Both the position numbers and the translations under genes were made by a program. Below, in pieces: positions 2,746-18,311 of a DNA stretch of 64,000 bases. Within the stretch, counting starts at the first letter, position 1. Each line of letters begins with the position of its first letter. The notes under the pieces are model-generated. The model worked only from the letters and a program-made list of their open reading frames with translations. It searched no databases and had not been told where the DNA came from. The DNA comes from Malonomonas rubra DSM 5091 (GTDB lineage: Bacteria > Desulfobacterota > Desulfuromonadia > Desulfuromonadales > Geopsychrobacteraceae): assembly GCF_900142125.1 (NCBI RefSeq), contig NZ_FQZT01000002.1, positions 310,001-374,000 of the forward strand, given 5' to 3'.

Positions 2746-3219
2746 CTATTGCACTAAATAGCCATTTGCAGATAAAAATTCGTTTTTCAGCAGGGCGAAG
2801 ACTTCCCGCTCGCGCGCTTCCATCTCCTCTGCTTCCTCCTCGCTGCCCCGCTCATGATCATAGCCAAGCAGGTGCAGAATTCCATGCAGCAGGAGAAAAC
2901 TGAGTTCATGTTCGAAAGGAACACCTGCGTCGGCAGCATCACTGGCAGCACGCTCAGCGGAGATTACCACGTCCCCCAGCAACAACGGCTGCAAACCACT
3001 CCCCTCGCCCTCCTGCATGGCGAATGAGATCACGTTTGTGGGTCGATCCCGTTCTAGGTAGTCGCGGTTGATTTCCTGAATACCGTCGTTGTCGAGGATC
3101 AGGATCGACAACTCGGCCTCAGGAAATCCCGAGACGCTTAAGATCTTCCGGGCTATCTTCCGCAGCGGCCGCTTCAGGATCTTTTGCTTCCCCTGCCGGT
3201 TCTCGATCTGTATCCTCAT
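2746..3219 (-). CDS. ybeY: Endoribonuclease / 16S rRNA maturation factor YbeY
   Basis: YbeY is a zinc-dependent single-strand RNase acting in 16S rRNA 3'-end maturation and ribosome quality control. The signature H-x3-H-x5-H metal site is present as HGILHLLGYDHE. Also visible are NRDYLERDRPTNVISFA and LLGDVVIS, both conserved in the family. The length, 157 residues, is normal. The start ATG at 3219 fits the family N-terminus (M-x-I-Q-I-E-N-R-Q) and no other Met occurs for over 90 codons, so the first 101 bp must overlap the 3' end of pgpH in another frame. The Shine-Dalgarno (GAGAAG) is weak, suggesting coupling to pgpH translation. Confidence 0.93.
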   Translation of the reverse strand: MRIQIENRQGKQKILKRPLRKIARKILSVSGFPEAELSILILDNDGIQEINRDYLERDRPTNVISFAMQEGEGSGLQPLLLGDVVISAERAASDAADAGVPFEHELSFLLLHGILHLLGYDHERGSEEEAEEMEAREREVFALLKNEFLSANGYLVQ

Positions 3220-5566
3220 GCTTCTCTTTCACCTTCTCTTCGACAACAGGCTTCTCTTCCTTTTCAGCTTTGCCATTCTTCTCGGGGTCTTCCTTCACTT
3301 CCGCCTTTTCGCGCACGATATGTACCGGTTCAGGATAATCGACCCGGTGGTGGAAAGAACCCGCCAGCACCCGGTTGAAGCTCTTGGCGATCAAGTGCAG
3401 GTCTTTCAGTGTCAGCTCGCACTCATCCAGCTGACCGTCGATGAAGATGTTGTTGATCAGCTTCTGCACCATCCCCTGAATCCGCGCCGGCGTCGGGTCC
3501 TGCAAAGTACGGCTGGCTGCCTCGATGGCATCAGCCAGCATAATCAGCGCCGCTTCCCGGGTTTGCGGTTTGGGGCCGGGATAGCGGTAGTCCCGTTCAT
3601 CCGGCTGCGGCATATCGGCATCGGTCTGGGTTTTTGCCCGGTCGTAAAAAAACTTGATCAGCGAAGTGCCATGGTGCTGCTGGATGATGTCGATCAGCTC
3701 CGGCCCAAGCTTGTGCTCCTTTGCCAGTTCGACCCCGTCCTTCAGGTGGGACATCAGGATCAATGCGCTCATCGATGGCGCCAGCTTGTCGTGCTTATTA
3801 CGCTGCCGGCCACCGTTCTCGATAAAATAGAGCGGTTTTTTGATCTTGCCGATATCGTGGTAATAAGCTGCAACCCGCGCCAACAGAGGATTAGCGTGAA
3901 TCGACTCGGCCGCAGCCTCTACCAGGTTGCCGACCAGAATCGAATGATGGTAAGTGCCCGGTGCTTCGACCATCAACTGGCGCAACACCGGCGAGTTCAT
4001 GTTCGCCAGTTCGAGCAGCTTGATATCGGTCGTATACTTGAACATCGCCTCGACCAGCGGAATGGTACCGGTGACGAAAACGGTGCTGAGCAGACCGCCG
4101 AACAAACCAAAACAAACTTTCCAGGCCAGCAACAGCTCGAAACCTCGCCCAGCCAGGAAGTGAATACCGATCAACAATGCCGCATTGGCCAGACCGACCC
4201 ACATGCCGGCACGATAGATGCTCGAACGTTCCTGGCAATGCCGGACACCATGTGCACCAACCAGGCTGCTGACCAAAGCCAGTAACGCCATAGGCAGGCT
4301 GTTGCCGAACAGCACCCCAACCAGAATCGAGGTACAGATCGAGAACAGCAGCGCCGTCTCGGCATTGAGGACAATCCGCACCAGCATGGCACCGAGGGCA
4401 AAAGGAATGGCATAGAAATAGGCGCTGGAATCAATATAGGCAAAGGTATTGCCGAGGGCCGTAGCGATAAAGATCGAAATCTTGATCAGCATAAACAAGG
4501 CCAGCATGACCATCGCCAGAAATAACAGGTCGCGCGAATCGGGCCGGAACTTACGGATATTGCTGTGGGCGTAGAAATAGCCGATATAAATCAGCAGCAC
4601 GGTACAGGACAGCAGGCCGAACGCGGTCGGCAGGCTGCGGTTATCCCGCCCCGATTCACGAATGGCACGCAGTTTGAGGATCTGGTCCGCGCTCACCCGC
4701 TCGCCTTCGCGGACGATCATCTCACCCTTTTTCACTTGGAACAGGACCGGTTTCACCTCGTCCCGCGCCTGCTGCCGCAGTCGGCTGGTCTCCTCTTCGT
4801 TGAACACCAGGCTCGGTCGGAGTTGCTGCTGCACCAATTTAAGCAATGTCTGATGCTGCACCGGTGACAGCCCGGCCATCTCACCGAGTAGCGCCTTCGC
4901 CTGCTCCAGAGCTTCATTCAAGCCGAAGGTCCGTTCCAAAACACCGCCCGGAAGCTCTTCGCCAGTGGTGACATCACGAACCAGAATGGTTTTGCGCCGA
5001 TCCGCTTCAAACACCTGCAGGTTGGCAACGATCGGTCGCTCGAAAACTTGGGCAAGCAGCTCGCTGGCCTGATGGGGAATCTGCGGATCGAGGGGAAGAT
5101 CGATCAGGGCACTGAACTCGGTTTCAGTCAATGGGACGCCGAAATCAGATTCCAGCTGCGGCAAAAATTCATTCTGCGCCGGCGGGTTCTCCACGTTGCG
5201 CAGCTCCAGCAGCAGCTGCAAGCCACTGCGAATTCGCTCCACCGCCTGGCGACCAGCCGTGGTCTGGTAATCATAAACAGGTGGGACCGCGGCCCAGGCT
5301 TCATCCTGCTTGGCCCTTGTCAGCGGTTTATCCTCCACCAGCAGATCACGTGGAGACTTGATATCGCGCGAAGCGATCTCGCCCGGGTCGTGGTATTCGG
5401 GGATCAATCCCCCCTTGGGAACGATAATCAGGGTTAACAGGAAAGCCAGCGCGAACAGCAGCCAGACACCAAAGTTGGTTTTGCGCCTGTTCCGCAGCCC
5501 CTGCACCCCATCACCGAAAATGGCTTCGCGCCCGCGGCGCGCTTTTTCCTGTTCTTCCTTGGTCAT
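3119..5566 (-). CDS. pgpH: PgpH-like 7TM-HD phosphohydrolase (HDIG family)
   Basis: The 815-residue inner-membrane protein begins with one membrane segment and an extracytoplasmic 7TMR-HDED domain (about residues 50-310). About seven further helices follow, then a cytoplasmic HD hydrolase domain. The HD motifs are visible as TYHHSILVGNLVEAA, YYHDIGKIKKP and QQHHGTSLIKFFY. The best-studied relative, Listeria PgpH, hydrolyses c-di-AMP; substrate here is inferred. After the HD domain there is an unusual Lys/Glu/Asp-rich tail of about 70 residues, whose last 33 codons are overprinted by the start of ybeY. The gene sits 13 bp downstream of phoH. Confidence 0.9.
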   Translation of the reverse strand: MTKEEQEKARRGREAIFGDGVQGLRNRRKTNFGVWLLFALAFLLTLIIVPKGGLIPEYHDPGEIASRDIKSPRDLLVEDKPLTRAKQDEAWAAVPPVYDYQTTAGRQAVERIRSGLQLLLELRNVENPPAQNEFLPQLESDFGVPLTETEFSALIDLPLDPQIPHQASELLAQVFERPIVANLQVFEADRRKTILVRDVTTGEELPGGVLERTFGLNEALEQAKALLGEMAGLSPVQHQTLLKLVQQQLRPSLVFNEEETSRLRQQARDEVKPVLFQVKKGEMIVREGERVSADQILKLRAIRESGRDNRSLPTAFGLLSCTVLLIYIGYFYAHSNIRKFRPDSRDLLFLAMVMLALFMLIKISIFIATALGNTFAYIDSSAYFYAIPFALGAMLVRIVLNAETALLFSICTSILVGVLFGNSLPMALLALVSSLVGAHGVRHCQERSSIYRAGMWVGLANAALLIGIHFLAGRGFELLLAWKVCFGLFGGLLSTVFVTGTIPLVEAMFKYTTDIKLLELANMNSPVLRQLMVEAPGTYHHSILVGNLVEAAAESIHANPLLARVAAYYHDIGKIKKPLYFIENGGRQRNKHDKLAPSMSALILMSHLKDGVELAKEHKLGPELIDIIQQHHGTSLIKFFYDRAKTQTDADMPQPDERDYRYPGPKPQTREAALIMLADAIEAASRTLQDPTPARIQGMVQKLINNIFIDGQLDECELTLKDLHLIAKSFNRVLAGSFHHRVDYPEPVHIVREKAEVKEDPEKNGKAEKEEKPVVEEKVKEKHEDTDREPAGEAKDPEAAAAEDSPEDLKRLGIS

Positions 5567-6764: not shown

Positions 6765-8936
6765 TTGACTGCCAAGCCGACCGTCCAAAATATACAGGTC
6801 CCGGACAGCCGTATTCTGGCCGAGTTTCTTCACGAGCTGAATATCGCCCGCCGCAACCTGACCCTCTACCCAAGTGATCACCCACAAGTGGTCGCCGCTG
6901 GCAACAAAACCCTCAACCGGCTCGAACGCCTCCTCTGCAATCGCAAAAGCATCACCATCGGCATTGCTCCCGACGCCCTTTTTTTCGAGCATCAGTGGCT
7001 CGACAAAGAAGATCCGGCATTTCGTTCTTTTGCCGTTTTCTTTTCCAGCCTCGGCATCGCTTCTATCAGCTTCGCTGACGGACTGACCACGGACCAGTTC
7101 ATCCGCTTCTGCCAACTTCTGCGCAGTGACCGTGAATCTATCGAAAATTTTGGCGGTTACCCGATGATGCTGGAGCAACAGCGGATCGATAAAGTTGCCC
7201 TGGTCCCGATCGATTACAGCGCGTTCCAGGCCAGCGAAGAGGAGGGCAGCACGGCAGCGGAACTCAGTCCCGACCTGTGGGAGGATTTCCTCCACGGCCT
7301 GCTCGACGATATCCTCGACCTGGGAGAGGATGGCTACCACCTGGCCCCGGCAACCATCGCCGGGTTACTGAACGAACGCATCTCGGGCAACAGCGAAAAG
7401 CTGCCGCAGGAATCGATCCGGTCTTTCGTCAGTGGTTATCTCGGCAAAGACAGAAAAAATCGCAACAAAAATCGCGCCGACATGCTCGGTGAACTGGTCA
7501 GCAGCCTGTCACAAGGCCTGCAGGCCGATTTCATCGAAGAAGGATTAAGTGAGCTGCAAGCCGACACTGCCGCTGTCGAACGCTTCGTTCGCCACCTGTC
7601 GCCGGAACAGTTACAGGGGAATTTCGATCCCCGCCTGCAGAAACAGCTTAACCTTTCGCCGCGCCTGGTTGACCTGATCAGCCAGATGATCACAAACACG
7701 GACAGCGAAACATCCGGCACCACGACACCAACTGACAGTCGCCCACTCGATAAAAACATGGTGCGTGCGCGCCTCGACACCCTGTTCAGTGAAGAAACCC
7801 ACGACAGCTATGTCCCTGACAGTTACCAGGCTGCGCTGCTCGGCATGCTTGACGCTGGGTACAGCGGTGAGTTTGCTCTGCCGCAGGAAGATCGGGAAGA
7901 GCTGCTGCGCGACTTTGAAATCAGTTCAAGCGAAGAGCAGTGCTGCGGCATTATCTTCGAGCTGCTGGATAATTCGATCGAGCTGGACGACGAAGAGGCC
8001 CTGCAACAGAACCTGCTCGACCTCTCCCGCTACTTTCTCGATACCGGAAATTTTGCAATGTTGCAGCAGATTTACCATAACTGGGCACGCTACCTGGACA
8101 GTGGCAGATCACAAATCGACCTGTTAAGCGAAAAGGTTCTGGCCAACCACACCCAGCAGACCTTTATGCAGGAAGTGCTGGACGGCATTGAGCTTTGGGG
8201 CGAGGAAAAACAGGACGCGATCTGCAACTACATCGCAACCGTCGGCAGCGGCTATACCGAAATAGTGATCGAACAGCTGGCCCAGGCGAAACATTACCGG
8301 CAGCGCCGCTTCTGGATGCAGGTTCTGGAAGCCCTTGGCACCGATGCAACAGAGCTGTTGCTGCAATCCCTTGATGATGAACGCTGGTACCTGATCCGCA
8401 ATCTGCTGATTGTCATCGAAAAAAACCTGCAACCGAAGGCACTCAAAGCCGTCAATCGACTGACCTCACACCCACACCCGAAAGTTCGCCAGGAAGCGAT
8501 CCGCGTTCTTTTAACCTGCAACCCGGCAACGGCGAACAGAATTCTGCTGCAAGAACTGCGCAACACAGATCCGGACATGCTGGCAGCAGCGATTGAAGCG
8601 GCCGCATTCAGTAAAGACAGGGACGTTCTCGACTGCCTCCATCAGCTGCTACAGCAAACAACAGAAAGTAGCCTGGGCACGGTAAAGCCATTACTGACAA
8701 GCCTTGCCCACATCGGCCATCCCGATAGTCTTGAGCTGATGAAACAATTACTGCAGAAAAGAGGACTGCTCGGAAACCGTAAGCAGAAACCGTTGCAGCA
8801 AGAAATCGTCAAGAGTCTGAACGACTTCCGTCTGCGCGAAGCAAAAATGCTGCTGCGCAGTATCGCGTCTGGCAAAGACCGTCAGTTGGCCGCGCTGGCC
8901 AGCGATCAATTAAATCGGACAGAGGCGAGCCCATGA
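6765..8936 (+). CDS. HEAT-like repeat protein with N-terminal domain shared with HD-GYP partner (copy 1)
   Basis: No family name is recognised for the full 723-residue protein. Residues ~15-130 form a compact domain with the pattern LYPSDHPQV ... ITIGIAPDALFFEHQWL, which recurs at the start of the next three genes. The middle is acidic and helical. The C-terminal ~200 residues read as alpha-helical HEAT-like repeats (DDERWYLIRNLL, HPKVRQEAIRVLL). There is no signal peptide or membrane helix, so it is probably cytoplasmic. The start is TTG at 6765, because an in-frame stop lies at 6747 and no ATG is available. It overlaps the HD-GYP gene by 4 bp (ATGA), implying coupled translation and likely a physical partnership. 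Copy 2 is at 10122-12284. Confidence 0.8.
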   Translation: MTAKPTVQNIQVPDSRILAEFLHELNIARRNLTLYPSDHPQVVAAGNKTLNRLERLLCNRKSITIGIAPDALFFEHQWLDKEDPAFRSFAVFFSSLGIASISFADGLTTDQFIRFCQLLRSDRESIENFGGYPMMLEQQRIDKVALVPIDYSAFQASEEEGSTAAELSPDLWEDFLHGLLDDILDLGEDGYHLAPATIAGLLNERISGNSEKLPQESIRSFVSGYLGKDRKNRNKNRADMLGELVSSLSQGLQADFIEEGLSELQADTAAVERFVRHLSPEQLQGNFDPRLQKQLNLSPRLVDLISQMITNTDSETSGTTTPTDSRPLDKNMVRARLDTLFSEETHDSYVPDSYQAALLGMLDAGYSGEFALPQEDREELLRDFEISSSEEQCCGIIFELLDNSIELDDEEALQQNLLDLSRYFLDTGNFAMLQQIYHNWARYLDSGRSQIDLLSEKVLANHTQQTFMQEVLDGIELWGEEKQDAICNYIATVGSGYTEIVIEQLAQAKHYRQRRFWMQVLEALGTDATELLLQSLDDERWYLIRNLLIVIEKNLQPKALKAVNRLTSHPHPKVRQEAIRVLLTCNPATANRILLQELRNTDPDMLAAAIEAAAFSKDRDVLDCLHQLLQQTTESSLGTVKPLLTSLAHIGHPDSLELMKQLLQKRGLLGNRKQKPLQQEIVKSLNDFRLREAKMLLRSIASGKDRQLAALASDQLNRTEASP

Positions 8937-10078
8937 CCGATTCCCACGACAATCTGCATAATTTCATCCGCCTGCTGACAACCGCCGCAGCAAACGCAGC
9001 CATGTACCAGCTCGATCACCCACAGGTCGCGCGCCTCTGCCGGCAGGCATTCGGCGAGCTTCAGACTCTCTTGAAGCAGCACAACCCGGTGACACTAAAG
9101 ATCATTGAAAACCAATTGATCTTCGACAATAGACCGGTCAGCGACAATATATCGGTGCATAGGTTCATTGCGGCACTTGGCAAGCAACAGATCGGTTTTC
9201 TGCAATTTGAGCCGGGGATCTATAACGAAGAGCTGCTCGGTTTAATCAATACGCTGAGCAAGCGCCAGAGCACCGATGTCGACCTGAGCGAAAGCGAGCA
9301 CATCCACTTCAGTAAAATTGAGGTGCGTTACCGCTCCCAGAGCAGTCGCCAGCAAACCACCCAGCTGCTGCTGAGCGATATTGCCAACAAGGAAGCCGAT
9401 CGGCAGATGCACCTGTACCAGTCAGTTCAACAACATCAGCAGGTCGACATCAGCGAGATCAGCGAACTGGTCAGCGGTTTTATCAACGCATTCAGCCAGC
9501 ACAGTGATGCGTTCCTCGCTCTCGCGCCATTACGCTCAATGGACGAGTACACCTATACGCATTCAACCAACATCTGCCTGCTCAACCTGGCCCAGGCACA
9601 GCAACTCGGCATTAAGGGACAGCAGCTCAACGAGATTGGTATCGCTGCCATGCTGCACGATGTCGGCAAGATGTTCATCTCTCCCGGCATCCTCAGCAAA
9701 AAAGGCAAGCTGACCGATGAGGAATGGCAACAGATGCAGCAACACCCACGCCTTGGCGCTGAATACCTGCTGAGCACTCCGGGCGTGCCACGCCTTGCCG
9801 TCGTTACCGCTTATGAGCATCACATGGGCTTTGATGGCAAAGGTTATCCGCAACCGGGCCGCCCGTGGAAAATGAACCTCTGCTCCCACATGACGGCGAT
9901 CTCCGACACCTATGACGCCATGCGCACCAAGCGCAGTTACGAGGATTCACTACAGCAGAATGAAATCATCAACATCATGCTGAACCTCGCCGGCACGCGG
10001 CTGCATCCACAGTTGACCTACAGTTTTCTGCAGATGCTGAGCACTCTGGATAAAGGCAAAGTTGCCAGTCAACAATAA
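8933..10078 (+). CDS. HD-GYP domain protein, probable c-di-GMP phosphodiesterase (copy 1)
   Basis: This 381-residue protein starts with the same ~120-residue domain as its neighbours (MYQLDHPQV ... VTLKIIENQLIFDNRPV) and ends in an HD-GYP domain. The metal-binding HD is H242-D243 in MLHDVGK, followed by HPRLGAEYL, YEHHMGFDGKGYP (GYP at 304-306) and DTYDAMRTKRSY. HD-GYP enzymes degrade cyclic di-GMP. All main motifs are present, so activity is plausible but not proven. No sensor or receiver domain is present; the N-terminal domain and the overlapping HEAT-like protein probably supply control. The ATG overlaps the previous stop by 4 bp. Confidence 0.88.
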   Translation: MTDSHDNLHNFIRLLTTAAANAAMYQLDHPQVARLCRQAFGELQTLLKQHNPVTLKIIENQLIFDNRPVSDNISVHRFIAALGKQQIGFLQFEPGIYNEELLGLINTLSKRQSTDVDLSESEHIHFSKIEVRYRSQSSRQQTTQLLLSDIANKEADRQMHLYQSVQQHQQVDISEISELVSGFINAFSQHSDAFLALAPLRSMDEYTYTHSTNICLLNLAQAQQLGIKGQQLNEIGIAAMLHDVGKMFISPGILSKKGKLTDEEWQQMQQHPRLGAEYLLSTPGVPRLAVVTAYEHHMGFDGKGYPQPGRPWKMNLCSHMTAISDTYDAMRTKRSYEDSLQQNEIINIMLNLAGTRLHPQLTYSFLQMLSTLDKGKVASQQ

Positions 10079-10121
10079 GCTATGATAAATTAAACCTTTC
10101 CAAATAAAATACTGACGAGAA

Positions 10122-12284
10122 ATGGATATTCTTGTGGACAGCCTTTTAGAGCCAACTCAAAAGAAAGAAGAGCAGACCCGCCTGTTGGCAAGTTTTATCC
10201 ACGAACTGAATATCACCCGGCGGCATCTAAACACCTACCCGGCGGGACACCCAATCATTGATTCGGCTTACGACAAGCTTCGGCTTCTGCTAACCCCACT
10301 GTTCAAAGAGTACCCAAAGTTTGCTTTCGGCGTAGCCAAAGGCACATTGCTCTTTGATCACCAATGGCTGGATCGTAATAATCCAAGGATCAATGACTTT
10401 GCCAAAGTTCTCTCAAAACTCGACATCGCTGCCGTTCATTTTCATTCTCAGCCAGAAAAAGTCGAACTCCTCCGTTTTGCCGAACTGATCAACCTCGACC
10501 AGCAGAAAGTCAGCTCCGAAGGCGGGCTGGAAAAACTTTTGAAGCAACAGGACTTTACCTGCCTTGAGATAACACCTGTCGACTACAGCGTGTTTCGTAT
10601 TACCGAGCAGGATGTTAGCAAAGAAGAGTTGGACGAGAAGCTCTGGGAAAACTTCATTTCCCGATTATTGGAAGGGCATTCAGGTGCCTCTCAACGGGAG
10701 TTAGACCCGGCGGCGGTTGCAGAGATCTTAAACAGTAACTTTGCTCTCGGTGACGGCAGCGAAAGTAACGATTTCGAACAGATCGTATCCGATTTTATCC
10801 GCCACCTAAAAACAGCTAAAGTCGAAAAGTCGGGCGAACAGTTTGCCGCTTTGGTCAGAAATCTGGCCCCGCAGTTAAAGCAGCAGTTTATTGCAACTGC
10901 GACTCAGCAATTAGACAGAGACCCCACTGTCTCCATGGAAGACCTGCAGGCGATGCCACCCTCTTTAATCGAGATGGCGTTGAAAGAGTTCAACGATAAT
11001 CAGTTGAATATCTCTGCGACCATGATCAACCTGGTCAGTAACCTTCACAGCCACCACCAGCGTAAAGGTCGACTCACAAGTGGCGACTTCCAGGAAAATG
11101 ACAACACTGCAGATCATCTCCGCACCCTGTTTCAGGAAGAAGATAAAGGAAAGTTCACCCCCGACTCCTACCAGCTAACCCTGGACAGGATCACCAACGA
11201 ACAAGCAGAATTCAACCTTCCCGAAGCAGACAAAGAAAATCTGCTGCAGCTTGTTTTGAACAGCTCAACGGAAATGCACAACTGCGCTATCATCTTCAAC
11301 CTTCTCGGCAAAGACGAAATACATGCAGAATCACGGGAACGGCTGCAGGAAAATCTGATTGATCTGGCAGATTACTTCTTGGCAACAGGGGGATTCAAAG
11401 GGCTCAACTACATTCAGCAAAGGTTAAGGCAGCACCAACAGCGGCATCCGGACAATGAAGAAAACATTAACAACCTGCAACAACACCTCAACGCGCCGGA
11501 GTTTTACCAGGAGATTCTGGACAACATCGACCGCTGGGATGAACAGAAACAAAAAGAGATCACTGCTTATATAAAATCAGCTGGAGCCGGCATTACTGAA
11601 GCTTTGCTTAAACGCCTGACAATAGAAGAAGACAAGTCTCTTCGCCGAACCTATCTGAACACTCTGGCAGGCTTTGGCAAAGTGGTGCACCCTGTAATAT
11701 ACAAACATTTGCATGATGAGCGCTGGTTTGTCATTCGCAACATGCTGACGATTCTACGGATGCAGCAAGATCCGATTGACCTGAAAAAACTGCGGCATTT
11801 GGAAAAATCCAGCAATCTCAGGGTTAACCAAGAATACCTCCAGCTGCTGTTCAAATTCGATCGCAACAGAGCCACAGAACTACTCAGTAAACAGCTGCAA
11901 AGCAATAATCCACAGCTGCAAATACACGCAGTGCAGCTGGCAACGCAGAGCAATGATCCGGCAACCGGCCAACTGCTGCTAAAAATGCTGCATAAAGAGC
12001 GACTGAAAGATGAAAATCTGCAGCTGAAAATGCAGCTCGTTCGCAGTCTTTGTGTCCTTGCTGACAAAGCAGCGCTGCCAACATTGAAAAAGCTCTTGAA
12101 TCCGGGATTTCTATATACATCAAAACGGAAAATTGAGTTGCAAAAAGAGATCGTTCGCAATCTTCATCATTATCCCGCTCAGTCTGTCGAACGCATTCTA
12201 AAAAAACTGGCCCGCTCGCGGAGAAAAGGTGTCAATAGCCTGGCGGCGGACAAACTCCGGCAACTTCACAGGAAGCAACAATGA
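10122..12284 (+). CDS. HEAT-like repeat protein with shared N-terminal domain (copy 2)
   Basis: This is a full-length paralogue of the 6765-8936 gene, 720 versus 723 residues and alignable end to end. Shared features are FIHELNITRRHLNTYP.GHP in the N-terminal domain, FDHQWLDRNNP, the middle block LEDYSVF-like, and the C-terminal HDERWFVIRNMLTIL repeat. It is more Lys/Asn-rich and less GC-rich in third positions than copy 1, so the copies have diverged. The start ATG at 10122 lies 43 bp after the copy 1 HD-GYP stop. The 3' end overlaps the next HD-GYP gene by 4 bp. Function unknown; a scaffold or regulator of its phosphodiesterase is an inference from coupling. Confidence 0.8.
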   Translation: MDILVDSLLEPTQKKEEQTRLLASFIHELNITRRHLNTYPAGHPIIDSAYDKLRLLLTPLFKEYPKFAFGVAKGTLLFDHQWLDRNNPRINDFAKVLSKLDIAAVHFHSQPEKVELLRFAELINLDQQKVSSEGGLEKLLKQQDFTCLEITPVDYSVFRITEQDVSKEELDEKLWENFISRLLEGHSGASQRELDPAAVAEILNSNFALGDGSESNDFEQIVSDFIRHLKTAKVEKSGEQFAALVRNLAPQLKQQFIATATQQLDRDPTVSMEDLQAMPPSLIEMALKEFNDNQLNISATMINLVSNLHSHHQRKGRLTSGDFQENDNTADHLRTLFQEEDKGKFTPDSYQLTLDRITNEQAEFNLPEADKENLLQLVLNSSTEMHNCAIIFNLLGKDEIHAESRERLQENLIDLADYFLATGGFKGLNYIQQRLRQHQQRHPDNEENINNLQQHLNAPEFYQEILDNIDRWDEQKQKEITAYIKSAGAGITEALLKRLTIEEDKSLRRTYLNTLAGFGKVVHPVIYKHLHDERWFVIRNMLTILRMQQDPIDLKKLRHLEKSSNLRVNQEYLQLLFKFDRNRATELLSKQLQSNNPQLQIHAVQLATQSNDPATGQLLLKMLHKERLKDENLQLKMQLVRSLCVLADKAALPTLKKLLNPGFLYTSKRKIELQKEIVRNLHHYPAQSVERILKKLARSRRKGVNSLAADKLRQLHRKQQ

Positions 12285-13426
12285 GTAAGCAGCAGAACAA
12301 AGAGCTCCTTGGCTTTATCCGGCGTTTAACCACGGCGGCTTCGACGGCCGGACTTTATCGACTGGACCACTCTCAGGTGACTCACCTCAACCAGCAAGCA
12401 CTGGAGCACCTGAAAAAACTTCTTGCTGATCAGGACGAATTCATCCTGATGCTGATAGACGGTAAATTAATTCATGCTGACAAGCCGGTCGAATATGATT
12501 TCTCTGTCGGTAGACTCAGCAAATTCTTTGAATTACGCAGAATAGCTCATCTGACAATCCGCCAAGGGGTTGATGAAAGTGAGCTGTTGCACCTCGTCGA
12601 TCTGATCAGCCAGAAAAACTTCACTCCGGGCAAACTTGAAGCAAGTACACACATCACTTTCGGCCAGGTTGAAGCTGCCGACCAAAACGAACAATGGGAC
12701 GAAACATTCTACGAAAACGCCCCAAAACTCGAAGATATCGAAACGGAAGAGATTGACCGCTTTAACGAAATTTATGAGGCTGTCCACAAAGGAAAACCGC
12801 TGCATGTACGAGGTCTGCAGGAAATCGTTGGCAGTTTCGTCAAAGCTTTTTCCGAACAGGGTGACAGTTTTCTCGCCTTGGCCCCCTTGCGCAATCTGGA
12901 CGAATACACCTACACCCATTCGACCAATGTCTGCATTTTGAATATCGCCCAGGCAAAGATGCTCGGCATTGAAGAGCAGATGCTCTATGAGATTGGTATC
13001 GCCGCCATGCTGCATGACATCGGCAAACTGTTCGTCCCGGCTGAGATTTTGCGGAAGGAAGGATCGCTGACAGACGAAGAGTGGATCATGATTCAGCAGC
13101 ATCCGGAAAACGGCGCCGAATATCTCGCCAACACCCCCGGAATCCCAAGACTGGCCGTAGTCACAGCCTACGAGCACCACATGCGCTACAACTGCAGCGG
13201 CTACCCGAAGGTCGGCAGCAACTGGCCCCAACATATTTGCAGCCAGATGACCACCATCTCCGATTTCTTCGATGCCCTGCGTACTCACCGCTCCTACCGC
13301 GCCGGCATGGACTTCGACAAAATTTCCCGCATCATGATGGAAGAATCAGGAACGGCCCTGCACCCGCAACTGACCCGCAACTTCCTTACCTGCATCCAGC
13401 AGATCGATGAAAGCCAACTTTCCTGA
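12281..13426 (+). CDS. HD-GYP domain protein, probable c-di-GMP phosphodiesterase (copy 2)
   Basis: This 381-residue paralogue has exactly the length of copy 1. The N-terminal shared domain (LYRLDHSQV ... FILMLIDGKLIHADKPV) is followed by an acidic linker with EDIETEEIDRF and then the HD-GYP domain. The motifs are H245-D246 in MLHDIGK, HPENGAEYL, YEHHMRYNCSGYP and DFFDALRTHRSY. A long block, PLRNLDEYTYTHSTN, is nearly identical to copy 1. It differs at the residues before GYP (NCSGYP versus DGKGYP), which could affect substrate or metal geometry. It closes the four-gene unit and is followed by the ettA promoter. Confidence 0.87.
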   Translation: MSKQQNKELLGFIRRLTTAASTAGLYRLDHSQVTHLNQQALEHLKKLLADQDEFILMLIDGKLIHADKPVEYDFSVGRLSKFFELRRIAHLTIRQGVDESELLHLVDLISQKNFTPGKLEASTHITFGQVEAADQNEQWDETFYENAPKLEDIETEEIDRFNEIYEAVHKGKPLHVRGLQEIVGSFVKAFSEQGDSFLALAPLRNLDEYTYTHSTNVCILNIAQAKMLGIEEQMLYEIGIAAMLHDIGKLFVPAEILRKEGSLTDEEWIMIQQHPENGAEYLANTPGIPRLAVVTAYEHHMRYNCSGYPKVGSNWPQHICSQMTTISDFFDALRTHRSYRAGMDFDKISRIMMEESGTALHPQLTRNFLTCIQQIDESQLS

Positions 13427-16461: not shown

Positions 16462-17688
16462 TTAAAAGCGTAACGAAAAGAAAACTTTTTGCCCTTTGCG
16501 CAGTTGAAATTCGGGCAACTTGACCTCCCCTCTTCCTTGCAGGCGAACACGAATCATGTGCTGCCCGGACAGTAACGGCACCCGCACCAGTGTTAGTCGA
16601 CCGGGCAAAGTCTGCCAGCTGCGCGTATCCGGCTCTTCCAGCAGAAGCAGAGAAATACGTGCCACCGCCTCGGCAGTGGGACCGTAGTCTTTGCCAACCT
16701 TCTGCGAAATCGCCTCTTTGGCAGCTACCCGCGCCGTCTCCTTGGCGATCAACTGCAGTTTGCGCTGATCCAGTGATTGCCGGGCGACCTCTCCCAGGCT
16801 GGTTGAGAGTGGTGGCAACATCGGGCTGGCAGGAGAGAGAACGACCTGCGCCAAAGCCGCATGAGATGTCTCATAATAAGGAAAGGAGAAACGAATTGAT
16901 GGTGGAACAATGATGTTTCCAGGCATTTTCTCCGGAATGCGACCATTTGCGATGAACAGCACCAGCTCGCCGTCAGCTGCCGGCAAGTTCGGCGGCAACA
17001 GGCCCTGGTATCGTTCCACGTCATCCCGCTGACCCAAGCGACTGCTGATCCTAAGCAGGTCGGCGACCACCGGCGCCGGGCCCGGCAGGTCATCGGCCAA
17101 CTGACGATAAACCAGGTAGGCATCGTTCTCTTCGCCGACGGTGGCAAAACAAAGAGCGATCAAGCCGCGAGAAAAGAAATCATTTTTCAGCGCTTGCGGG
17201 TAGCGCTGATAAAGCTCAACCGCTCGTCTGGCTTCAACATAGGCGCTGTCGTACTCTCCGAGCAGCAGAAAGTTCATCATCTGGTAGCTGTGCACCCAGA
17301 GCCGTTCGCTGTATTCGCCTTTGTAACGGGTCAACCACTCAGTCGTCACCAGGCTGCCGACCTGTTCACTGATGCCGAGCTGCTCGTAGCTCTGCAACAA
17401 GTCCGCGGCCTGTAGCAGGGCTTCGCTGCTTTCACGGTAGCGACCCAGCTGGTGAAGAACAGTTCCCCGTTCCAGCAGGAACAGCAGTCGGTTGCGCCCG
17501 CCAAAGATGTCCCCCTTTTCCAGTTCGGCCAATGCGGCTTCCGGCTGTTCAGCATGAAAAAGCTCGCTCGCTTTTTCCAGCCGCCCGGCACAACCGGTCA
17601 GCAGCAGCAACAGAAACAGGGGGATAAAAACGCGCAGACCGGGCCGACAGATGATCGTCAACCCGGCCTGAAAGAAGAAACGTATCAC
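16462..17688 (-). CDS. TPR-type lipoprotein, COG3014-like, next to LpoB homologue
   Basis: The product has a hydrophobic N-terminus ending in the lipobox LLTGC, so it is an outer-membrane or periplasmic lipoprotein. The N-terminal half is rich in TPR-like helices (HAEQPEAALAELEKG, LHQLGRYRESSEALLQAADLL, LGEYDSAYVEARRAVELYQ). The C-terminal half contains VLFIANGRIPEK and a beta-rich end, as in COG3014 proteins. Those are commonly found beside lpoB-like genes in other proteobacteria. Start choice is uncertain: GTG at 17688 is used here; TTG at 17712 (overlapping lpoB by 7 bp) and TTG at 17661 are alternatives. A role with LpoB in peptidoglycan synthesis control is inference from context. Confidence 0.7.
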   Translation of the reverse strand: MIRFFFQAGLTIICRPGLRVFIPLFLLLLLTGCAGRLEKASELFHAEQPEAALAELEKGDIFGGRNRLLFLLERGTVLHQLGRYRESSEALLQAADLLQSYEQLGISEQVGSLVTTEWLTRYKGEYSERLWVHSYQMMNFLLLGEYDSAYVEARRAVELYQRYPQALKNDFFSRGLIALCFATVGEENDAYLVYRQLADDLPGPAPVVADLLRISSRLGQRDDVERYQGLLPPNLPAADGELVLFIANGRIPEKMPGNIIVPPSIRFSFPYYETSHAALAQVVLSPASPMLPPLSTSLGEVARQSLDQRKLQLIAKETARVAAKEAISQKVGKDYGPTAEAVARISLLLLEEPDTRSWQTLPGRLTLVRVPLLSGQHMIRVRLQGRGEVKLPEFQLRKGQKVFFSLRF

Positions 17689-17705
17689 CGAAGGATCCGT
17701 TATCG

Positions 17706-18311
17706 CTACCAACCGATAAAAGGCTTCGAAGCTTCGCGAATTACCTCTGTGCTATCAGCCCACTCGATCAAACCGGTCTGAATATCTGTCAGTTCCAAGT
17801 TGAGGCTATAGTACATCAGCGTCTTCTTGGTCAGGCGGAACTGGCGCGGCTGTTTCTTTTCAATCGAACGCAGGGTGCCGGTCAGCATGTAGCGGGCGCC
17901 GACCTGTCGTGCCTTTAATATCCGGGTTTCCGCTGCGACACTGCCTCCATACTGGTAGCTGGTCTCTTTTTCGATATTTTCCCGCTGGGTTTCGTTGATC
18001 ATCCGCACCCGGCCACTCTCCACCAGCGCCATGCGGATATCATCCGAAATGGCCGATGTCGAAATGTGCTCGCTGGTCCGGTTGGCGATGCCGTAAACAA
18101 TCAGAACCGGCCGATCGGTCGCCCGCACCAGCGGATGCTTGGTCAGCAACGACGTGACCATATCGCCGACAATCATTTTCTTGTCGGAGAAGTGATAGCC
18201 CTCGTCGTAAATGACCTTTTCGTCTGATGCAACCTCCCGAGTGGTGACAGTGCACCCTGACAGCATCAGCAGGAAAATCATCCCACCCCAGAACAACAGA
18301 GATTTTTTCAT
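17706..18311 (-). CDS. lpoB: LpoB-like penicillin-binding protein activator lipoprotein
   Basis: This 201-residue lipoprotein has signal MKKSLLFWGG ... LMLSGC, with Cys as lipidation site. The fold resembles LpoB/FlgT-type proteins: VLIVYGIANRTSEHIST, DDIRMALVESGRVRMINE, GARYMLTGTLRSIEKK and LELTDIQTGLIEWADS are characteristic segments. In E. coli LpoB reaches from the outer membrane to stimulate PBP1b. No PBP gene is in the window, so the partner is unknown. It is preceded by GGGAG and lies 3 bp after the HIT gene. The family call is strong; orthology to E. coli lpoB is less so. Confidence 0.82.
   Translation of the reverse strand: MKKSLLFWGGMIFLLMLSGCTVTTREVASDEKVIYDEGYHFSDKKMIVGDMVTSLLTKHPLVRATDRPVLIVYGIANRTSEHISTSAISDDIRMALVESGRVRMINETQRENIEKETSYQYGGSVAAETRILKARQVGARYMLTGTLRSIEKKQPRQFRLTKKTLMYYSLNLELTDIQTGLIEWADSTEVIREASKPFIGW

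Follow-up and report, generated by a model that had tools for sequence, protein, structure and literature searches.

A HEAT-repeat/HD-GYP protein pair with a common unnamed N-terminal domain, a probable scaffold-enzyme unit duplicated in Malonomonas rubra

Does an HD-GYP protein that is repeatedly encoded next to a HEAT-repeat protein form a functional unit with it, and through what would the two be coupled? This question is raised by four consecutive plus-strand genes, A1, B1, A2 and B2 (positions 6765-13426), in a 64,000-nucleotide stretch of the Malonomonas rubra DSM 5091 genome (contig NZ_FQZT01000002.1, positions 310,001 to 374,000; hereafter the window), encoding proteins of 723, 381, 720 and 381 residues. 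A1 and A2 contain HEAT repeats, B1 and B2 an HD-GYP domain. To our knowledge, HD-GYP enzymes are common and the control of most of them is unknown; a conserved partner together with a common unnamed domain would point to a mode of control that can be tested in two phyla. The locus most likely represents a widespread scaffold-enzyme unit with an unnamed N-terminal domain (N-domain), duplicated in this lineage. Recalculated coordinates reproduce the gene order, the lengths and both 4-base overlaps given in the initial annotation. The overlaps, each within an ATGA, and the gap of only 43 bases between B1 and A2 indicate that the genes probably form one operon.

A single homologous N-domain is present in all four proteins. 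The N-termini of A1 and B1 are 26% identical in pairwise BLAST (29/113 columns, E 7e-6), and a 17-row profile of A proteins only matches a 17-row profile of B proteins only across 112 columns, with a probability of 98.1 and E 1.2e-13. Hidden Markov models (HMMs) iterated from A-only or B-only seeds converge on the identical 160 proteins among 3497 frames, 79 of them with the HD-GYP pattern and 81 without it, and the same frames reversed gave no match to the N-domain HMM. Together these results establish that the N-domains of A and B are homologous, in agreement with the shared domain noticed in the initial annotation.

That this domain carries no name also held: comparison of 111 members with Pfam and NCBIfam (E 0.01) revealed no credible named family. 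The stray matches, one member to one Pfam model (E 0.0071) and one NCBIfam match (E 0.002), were taken as chance, and so was a profile match over 47 positions to octarellin V.1, a designed protein (E 1.4e-5). The AlphaFold2 model of the B1 N-domain comprises two long helices, a beta hairpin, a helix, a strand, a helix and a strand; the model of the A1 N-domain has the same order of elements plus an extra short helix. Several top Foldseek rows were GAF proteins, but with E of at least 0.5, probability of at most 0.10 and TM of at most 0.25, and this assignment was not adopted. The tree of the N-domain alone is poorly resolved, and one of its rows (L105) is labelled A though identical to a B. 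Among the matches listed by a search of the open-access literature, with most subscription papers lying outside it, no paper dealt with a HEAT/HD-GYP gene pair or with the N-domain.

The pairing of A with B is not local to this genome. A1 was matched in all 60 relatives searched (E<=0.001; some matches are of the short type or cover the N-domain only), and B1 in 78 of the 117 genomes of the class (E<=1e-40). Of 297 genomes taken from across the phylum, 121 have the N-domain; relatives of B are present also in Gemmatimonadota. Domain-bearing B genes, 73 in number, were found at 65 of the 68 loci examined, and 69 of them have an A gene directly upstream. Three of the remaining four start less than 1.3 kb from a contig end, and one follows a frame-broken A. 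These counts are conditional on B, since loci L017-L082 were fetched via B; at L068 the second gene was assigned as B by hand. For other classes the first 45 positive genomes listed were analysed, so that the figure measures pairing given presence: of 114 domain hits, 86 form 43 same-strand neighbour pairs, with the larger frame first in 42, and the rest are 24 single hits and 2 frames with two domains each. The second gene has the HD-GYP pattern in all 3 of the 43 pairs that were read (L128, L141, L144). Thus, the co-occurrence proposed in the initial annotation as a check does recur across genomes.

The two pairs of M. rubra have clearly diverged, A1 and A2 being 29% identical (210/712 aligned columns) and B1 and B2 46% (171/373). 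Their base composition differs as originally noted, with GC contents of 55.0% (A1) and 53.8% (B1) against 47.4% (A2) and 51.0% (B2). Two pairs stand in tandem at eight loci of several lineages, indicating that the duplication, correctly recognized at the outset, is old. After removal by length of 5 of the 160 domain proteins, alignments of 77 A and 78 B proteins were obtained. The A tree was midpoint-rooted; the B tree, rooted on Gemmatimonadota, comprises 58 of the 78 rows, the third-pair row (see below) and 19 of the 23 Gemmatimonadota rows, L068 among them, being omitted. Both trees contain an identical group of 26, made up of the first copies and their single-copy relatives (clade 1; support 93 for A and 96 for B). 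The second copies split into two groups, one of which (with L107) each tree places as the sister of clade 1 at support 100; the same five second-type copies hold this position in A and in B. The trees differ at one point, the single copies L039, L040 and L042-L044, which fall into group 2a in the B tree (support 87) but split off before that group in the A tree. Their overall agreement indicates that duplication and divergence for the most part affected whole pairs. Consistently, A-B distances remain correlated after removal of the phoH signal (partial r 0.90; 0/2000 permutations) at the 23 of the 26 clade-1 loci that were fetched with an adjacent phoH, as against 0.58 and 0.48 with pgpH (22 loci) and 0.09 with ABC-F (17 loci). 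A third, more distant pair (A3, 526 residues; B3, 435 residues) is encoded elsewhere in the M. rubra genome, on contig C26 (L015:5850-8727, minus strand). It adjoins the genes of a sensor and a regulator whose translations, judged by eye, are LytS/LytR-like.

The N-domain is present in several other architectures. Proteins of the GGDEF-AAA-N-domain-HEAT type are encoded in other classes (L120, L123, L138 and L139; frames of 1181-1456 residues), N-domain-HEAT-cNMP-PilZ proteins at L121 and L140, and an N-domain-PAS-histidine kinase at L130; all were run against Pfam except the L123 protein, which was read by eye and with the N-domain HMM only. These fusions tie the N-domain to cyclic di-GMP (c-di-GMP) signalling: judging from domain content, makers, breakers and binders of this messenger all carry it. 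Two tandem N-domains within single GGDEF proteins of L120 and L123 are consistent with a domain that pairs. At L120 two GGDEF-AAA-N-domain-HEAT genes stand in tandem; for a diguanylate cyclase this architecture is unusual. The cNMP-PilZ proteins of L121 and L140 are possible double cyclic-nucleotide receptors.

The HEAT repeats of A1 and A2 make up their C-terminal parts and score 65.5 and 42.1 bits, respectively, with HEAT_2, above its curated cut-off of 27.7. Residues 381-723 of A1 align structurally with HEAT scaffolds (alphaRep designs, the PP2A scaffold subunit and importins), for instance with 4zv6_A (Z 15.7, root-mean-square deviation 7.8, 266 residues) and 2pf4_A (Z 14.4, 5.7, 276 residues). 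The likeness lies in the common solenoid arrangement only, the N-domain falls outside these matches, and they provide no evidence of a common function. A defence role of A1 was not adopted, the single weak PADLOC match (HEAT-ARM_XIII, E 5e-5, 18.9 bits) being taken as generic HEAT similarity; comparison of A1 and B1 with phage families gave no match.

The B proteins retain a full set of metal ligands, H210, H242, D243, H271, H296, H297 and D325 in B1. H210 is present in 77 of the 78 B proteins and the other six in all of them, B1 and B2 being complete; the GYP triad is invariant, and K246 is lysine in 77/78. This H...HD...H...HH...D array with GYP is the same as in PmGH of Persephonella marina (4mcw) and V-cGAP3 (5z7c), and D183, K225 and Arg314 of PmGH have counterparts in B proteins, the last being arginine in 78/78. 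Unlike PmGH and V-cGAP3, B proteins have HHM/L/I for HHE, the unnamed N-domain, a HEAT partner and, in 78/78, a tyrosine (Tyr206) for Glu185, the eighth ligand of PmGH. The latter replacement suggests that B is dinuclear, of the type described in PMC8177086, and not trinuclear.

The contact with the base distinguishes the two pairs. Guanine O6 receives hydrogen bonds from Arg314 and from the NZ atom of Lys317 in the complex of PmGH (PMC4159591). The counterpart of Lys317 is Glu (23) or Asp (3) in the 26 clade-1 proteins, B1 (Glu337) included, and Lys/Arg (27) or His (1) in the 28 other class proteins of this type, B2 included. It is Lys/Arg in the five other HD-GYP proteins found in this genome, Gln in the third-pair B, and Gln (20), Lys, Glu or Ala (one each) in the 23 Gemmatimonadota proteins; their single Glu belongs to L068, where the HD-x-GK lysine is also lost. 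In the 58-row tree, built without that column, a single branch (support 96) separates the acidic proteins from all the others, which places the apparent change at position 337 on the clade-1 branch, that is, in the first pair. The initial annotation had considered the second pair to be the specialized one, in part from its GYP flank; the clade-wide change at the base contact sits in pair 1 instead. In the flank of B2 (YNCSGYP), Cys302 is indeed unique among the 78 proteins, but Asn301 recurs in 3/4 group-2a relatives, 3/26 clade-1 proteins and 2/14 other class proteins, and GYP flanks vary within groups. Specialization of pair 2 is thus unsupported at the base contact, and Asn301/Cys302 leave a lesser change there possible.

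A switch from guanine to adenine would presumably require a hydrogen-bond donor to be replaced by an acceptor, as at position 337. Glu337 hints at altered base reading, and B1 may read an adenine-containing dinucleotide. In the boldest reading, possible if doubtful, the B1 lineage would have exchanged after duplication a Lys/Arg donor to guanine O6 for a Glu/Asp acceptor from adenine N6, B1 acting on cyclic GMP-AMP (cGAMP) or another adenine dinucleotide and B2 on c-di-GMP, as two insulated modules each with its own HEAT partner. Two observations argue against such a switch: the K317A variant of PmGH lost little activity (PMC4159591), and V-cGAP3, cGAMP-specific by its PDB entry name, has Arg at this position. 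An HD-GYP protein preferring cGAMP is known, PmxA of Myxococcus xanthus, which has a Gln tied to this selectivity (PMC8177086, PMC8844925), and cGAMP synthesis is known in Geobacter, via GacA (PMC6456294). For Geobacter sulfurreducens a strain reporting cGAMP exists (PMC8835794). If B1 does read adenine, it would be a candidate for the enzyme that clears cGAMP in a lineage known to make it, and B1 and B2 a natural paralogue pair for studying the evolution of second-messenger specificity.

The genome contains 46 GGDEF matches, covered by 44 fetched loci. The Hypr position, which we take to be the residue after GHxxG, was read in 37 of the 44 and is Asp in 34, Ser in two and Asn in one. Hypr proteins are marked by a Ser in place of this Asp (PMC6456294, PMC12943098), and the two proteins bearing it, a REC-GGDEF (L183, G000:C29:271211-271675) and a GAF-GGDEF protein (L184, G000:C17:207246-207719), are possible cGAMP synthases. 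Five riboswitches of the c-di-GMP-I class are also present and, together with the Ser-bearing GGDEF proteins, make a role of cGAMP possible. Four riboswitches (L132-L135) match best to Rfam c-di-GMP-I-GGC (RF03167).

Each pair can be read as a two-protein cyclic-dinucleotide unit, composed of an HD-GYP phosphodiesterase B and a HEAT scaffold A coupled by the N-domain and duplicated whole, a reading that we hold to be somewhat on the probable side. B would be a di-metal phosphodiesterase acting on a cyclic dinucleotide, while the HEAT solenoid of A would bind partners or targets. The common N-domain would couple the two, most simply as a heterodimer, and A would place or switch B; the whole unit would have been duplicated, with later divergence of the copies. 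Among possible mechanisms, such N-domain-mediated coupling is the likeliest. The computed support consists of the shared domain, the A-then-B order, joint duplication, correlated divergence, the full metal-ligand set and the GGDEF/PilZ association. The scaffold-enzyme partnership suggested by the initial annotation thus gains from adjacency, joint duplication and correlated divergence; contact through the N-domain and the switch role are inferences. Several points weigh on the other side. Adjacency and co-divergence can also be explained by a common pathway without contact. In other classes, 24 of 69 clusters contain one N-domain only; no second N-domain frame was found within the 6-7 kb read at L136, L142 and others, domain-less HD-GYP genes not being sought, and at least one such single (G142) is adjoined by a weaker B. 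Confidence in the A1 model (predicted template modelling score, pTM, 0.50) is low to moderate in its middle part, residues ~151-380, and the N-domain model has no clear match in the PDB (Foldseek best E 0.5, VIA-align Z <=4.7), which does not show that its fold is new. The glutamate of HHE is replaced by M, L or I in 78/78 B proteins. Finally, HD-GYP domains can be receptors, as DvhD of the sulfate reducer Desulfovibrio vulgaris, which binds cyclic dinucleotides (PMC13090378).

The last two points would also fit B as a weak or inactive receptor, relaying ligand binding at its HD-GYP domain to A as the output. HHE is intact in the five other HD-GYP proteins found in this genome, but K246 is kept in 77/78 B proteins, which is unexpected for a dead enzyme, and we regard such a role as distinctly unlikely. 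The structure matches 9rbz and 9rc0 may be those of DvhD. Unlike B, DvhD is a membrane receptor with PAS and HD-GYP domains and belongs to a Lap-like system, and the accessible part of its description mentions no HEAT partner (PMC13090378). Alternatively, the N-domain could be a sensor of one input, carried separately by A and B, with A acting on its own targets through its HEAT repeats and making no contact with B. Front domains usually sense, and the N-domain heads the PAS-histidine kinase and the HEAT-cNMP-PilZ proteins; however, adjacency, joint duplication and the high A-B partial correlation exceed what a common input needs, and tandem copies occur within one chain, which makes this explanation rather unlikely. 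An ordinary HD-GYP gene lying beside an unrelated HEAT gene by chance or in a housekeeping context is already disfavoured and very improbable. In Desulfuromonadales the pair is often flanked by a divergent phoH-pgpH group on one side and by an ABC-F gene on the other, and this old neighbourhood could suffice, but the A-B order is found in Gemmatimonadota beside other genes, on another contig as the third pair and in the 43 neighbour pairs of other classes, and A and B have a homologous domain.

The features of the locus are listed in Table 1; among the four start codons, that of A1 is the least certain.

Table 1. Features of the duplicated module (window coordinates; pLDDT, predicted local distance difference test).
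Feature	Position	Strand	Remark
A1, N-domain + HEAT solenoid, 723 residues, TTG start	6765..8936	+	HEAT_2 E 5.5e-18
A1 N-domain, residues ~14-150	6804..7214	+	
A1 C-terminal HEAT/alphaRep-like solenoid, residues 381-723	7905..8933	+	
ATGA overlap A1/B1, 4 bases	8933..8936	+	
B1, N-domain + HD-GYP, 381 residues	8933..10078	+	HD_5 E 9.4e-17
B1 N-domain	8933..9322	+	model pLDDT 91.3, pTM 0.84
B1 HD-GYP domain, residues 189-370	9497..10042	+	
B1 Glu337 codon, position of PmGH Lys317	9941..9943	+	
A2, N-domain + HEAT, 720 residues	10122..12284	+	HEAT_2 E 1.1e-10
A2 N-domain	10170..10580	+	
ATGA overlap A2/B2, 4 bases	12281..12284	+	
B2, N-domain + HD-GYP, 381 residues	12281..13426	+	HD_5 E 3.8e-18
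B2 N-domain	12281..12676	+	
B2 HD-GYP domain	12854..13396	+	
B2 Arg340 codon, counterpart of B1 Glu337	13298..13300	+	offset +3, BLAST alignment

Upstream of the module lie a divergent phoH, a 7TM-HD (PgpH-type) gene and ybeY, and downstream an ABC-F-like gene. The PgpH-type gene (3119-5566, minus strand), divergent from the module, encodes a probable cyclic di-AMP phosphodiesterase, so that two kinds of cyclic-dinucleotide HD enzymes are encoded close together; a relative of it is located upstream and divergent in 29 cases among the loci compared. The 416-residue protein encoded at 16462-17712, for which a Pfam scan gave no match, is adjoined by a gene of the LpoB family (PF13036; 17706-18311, minus strand).

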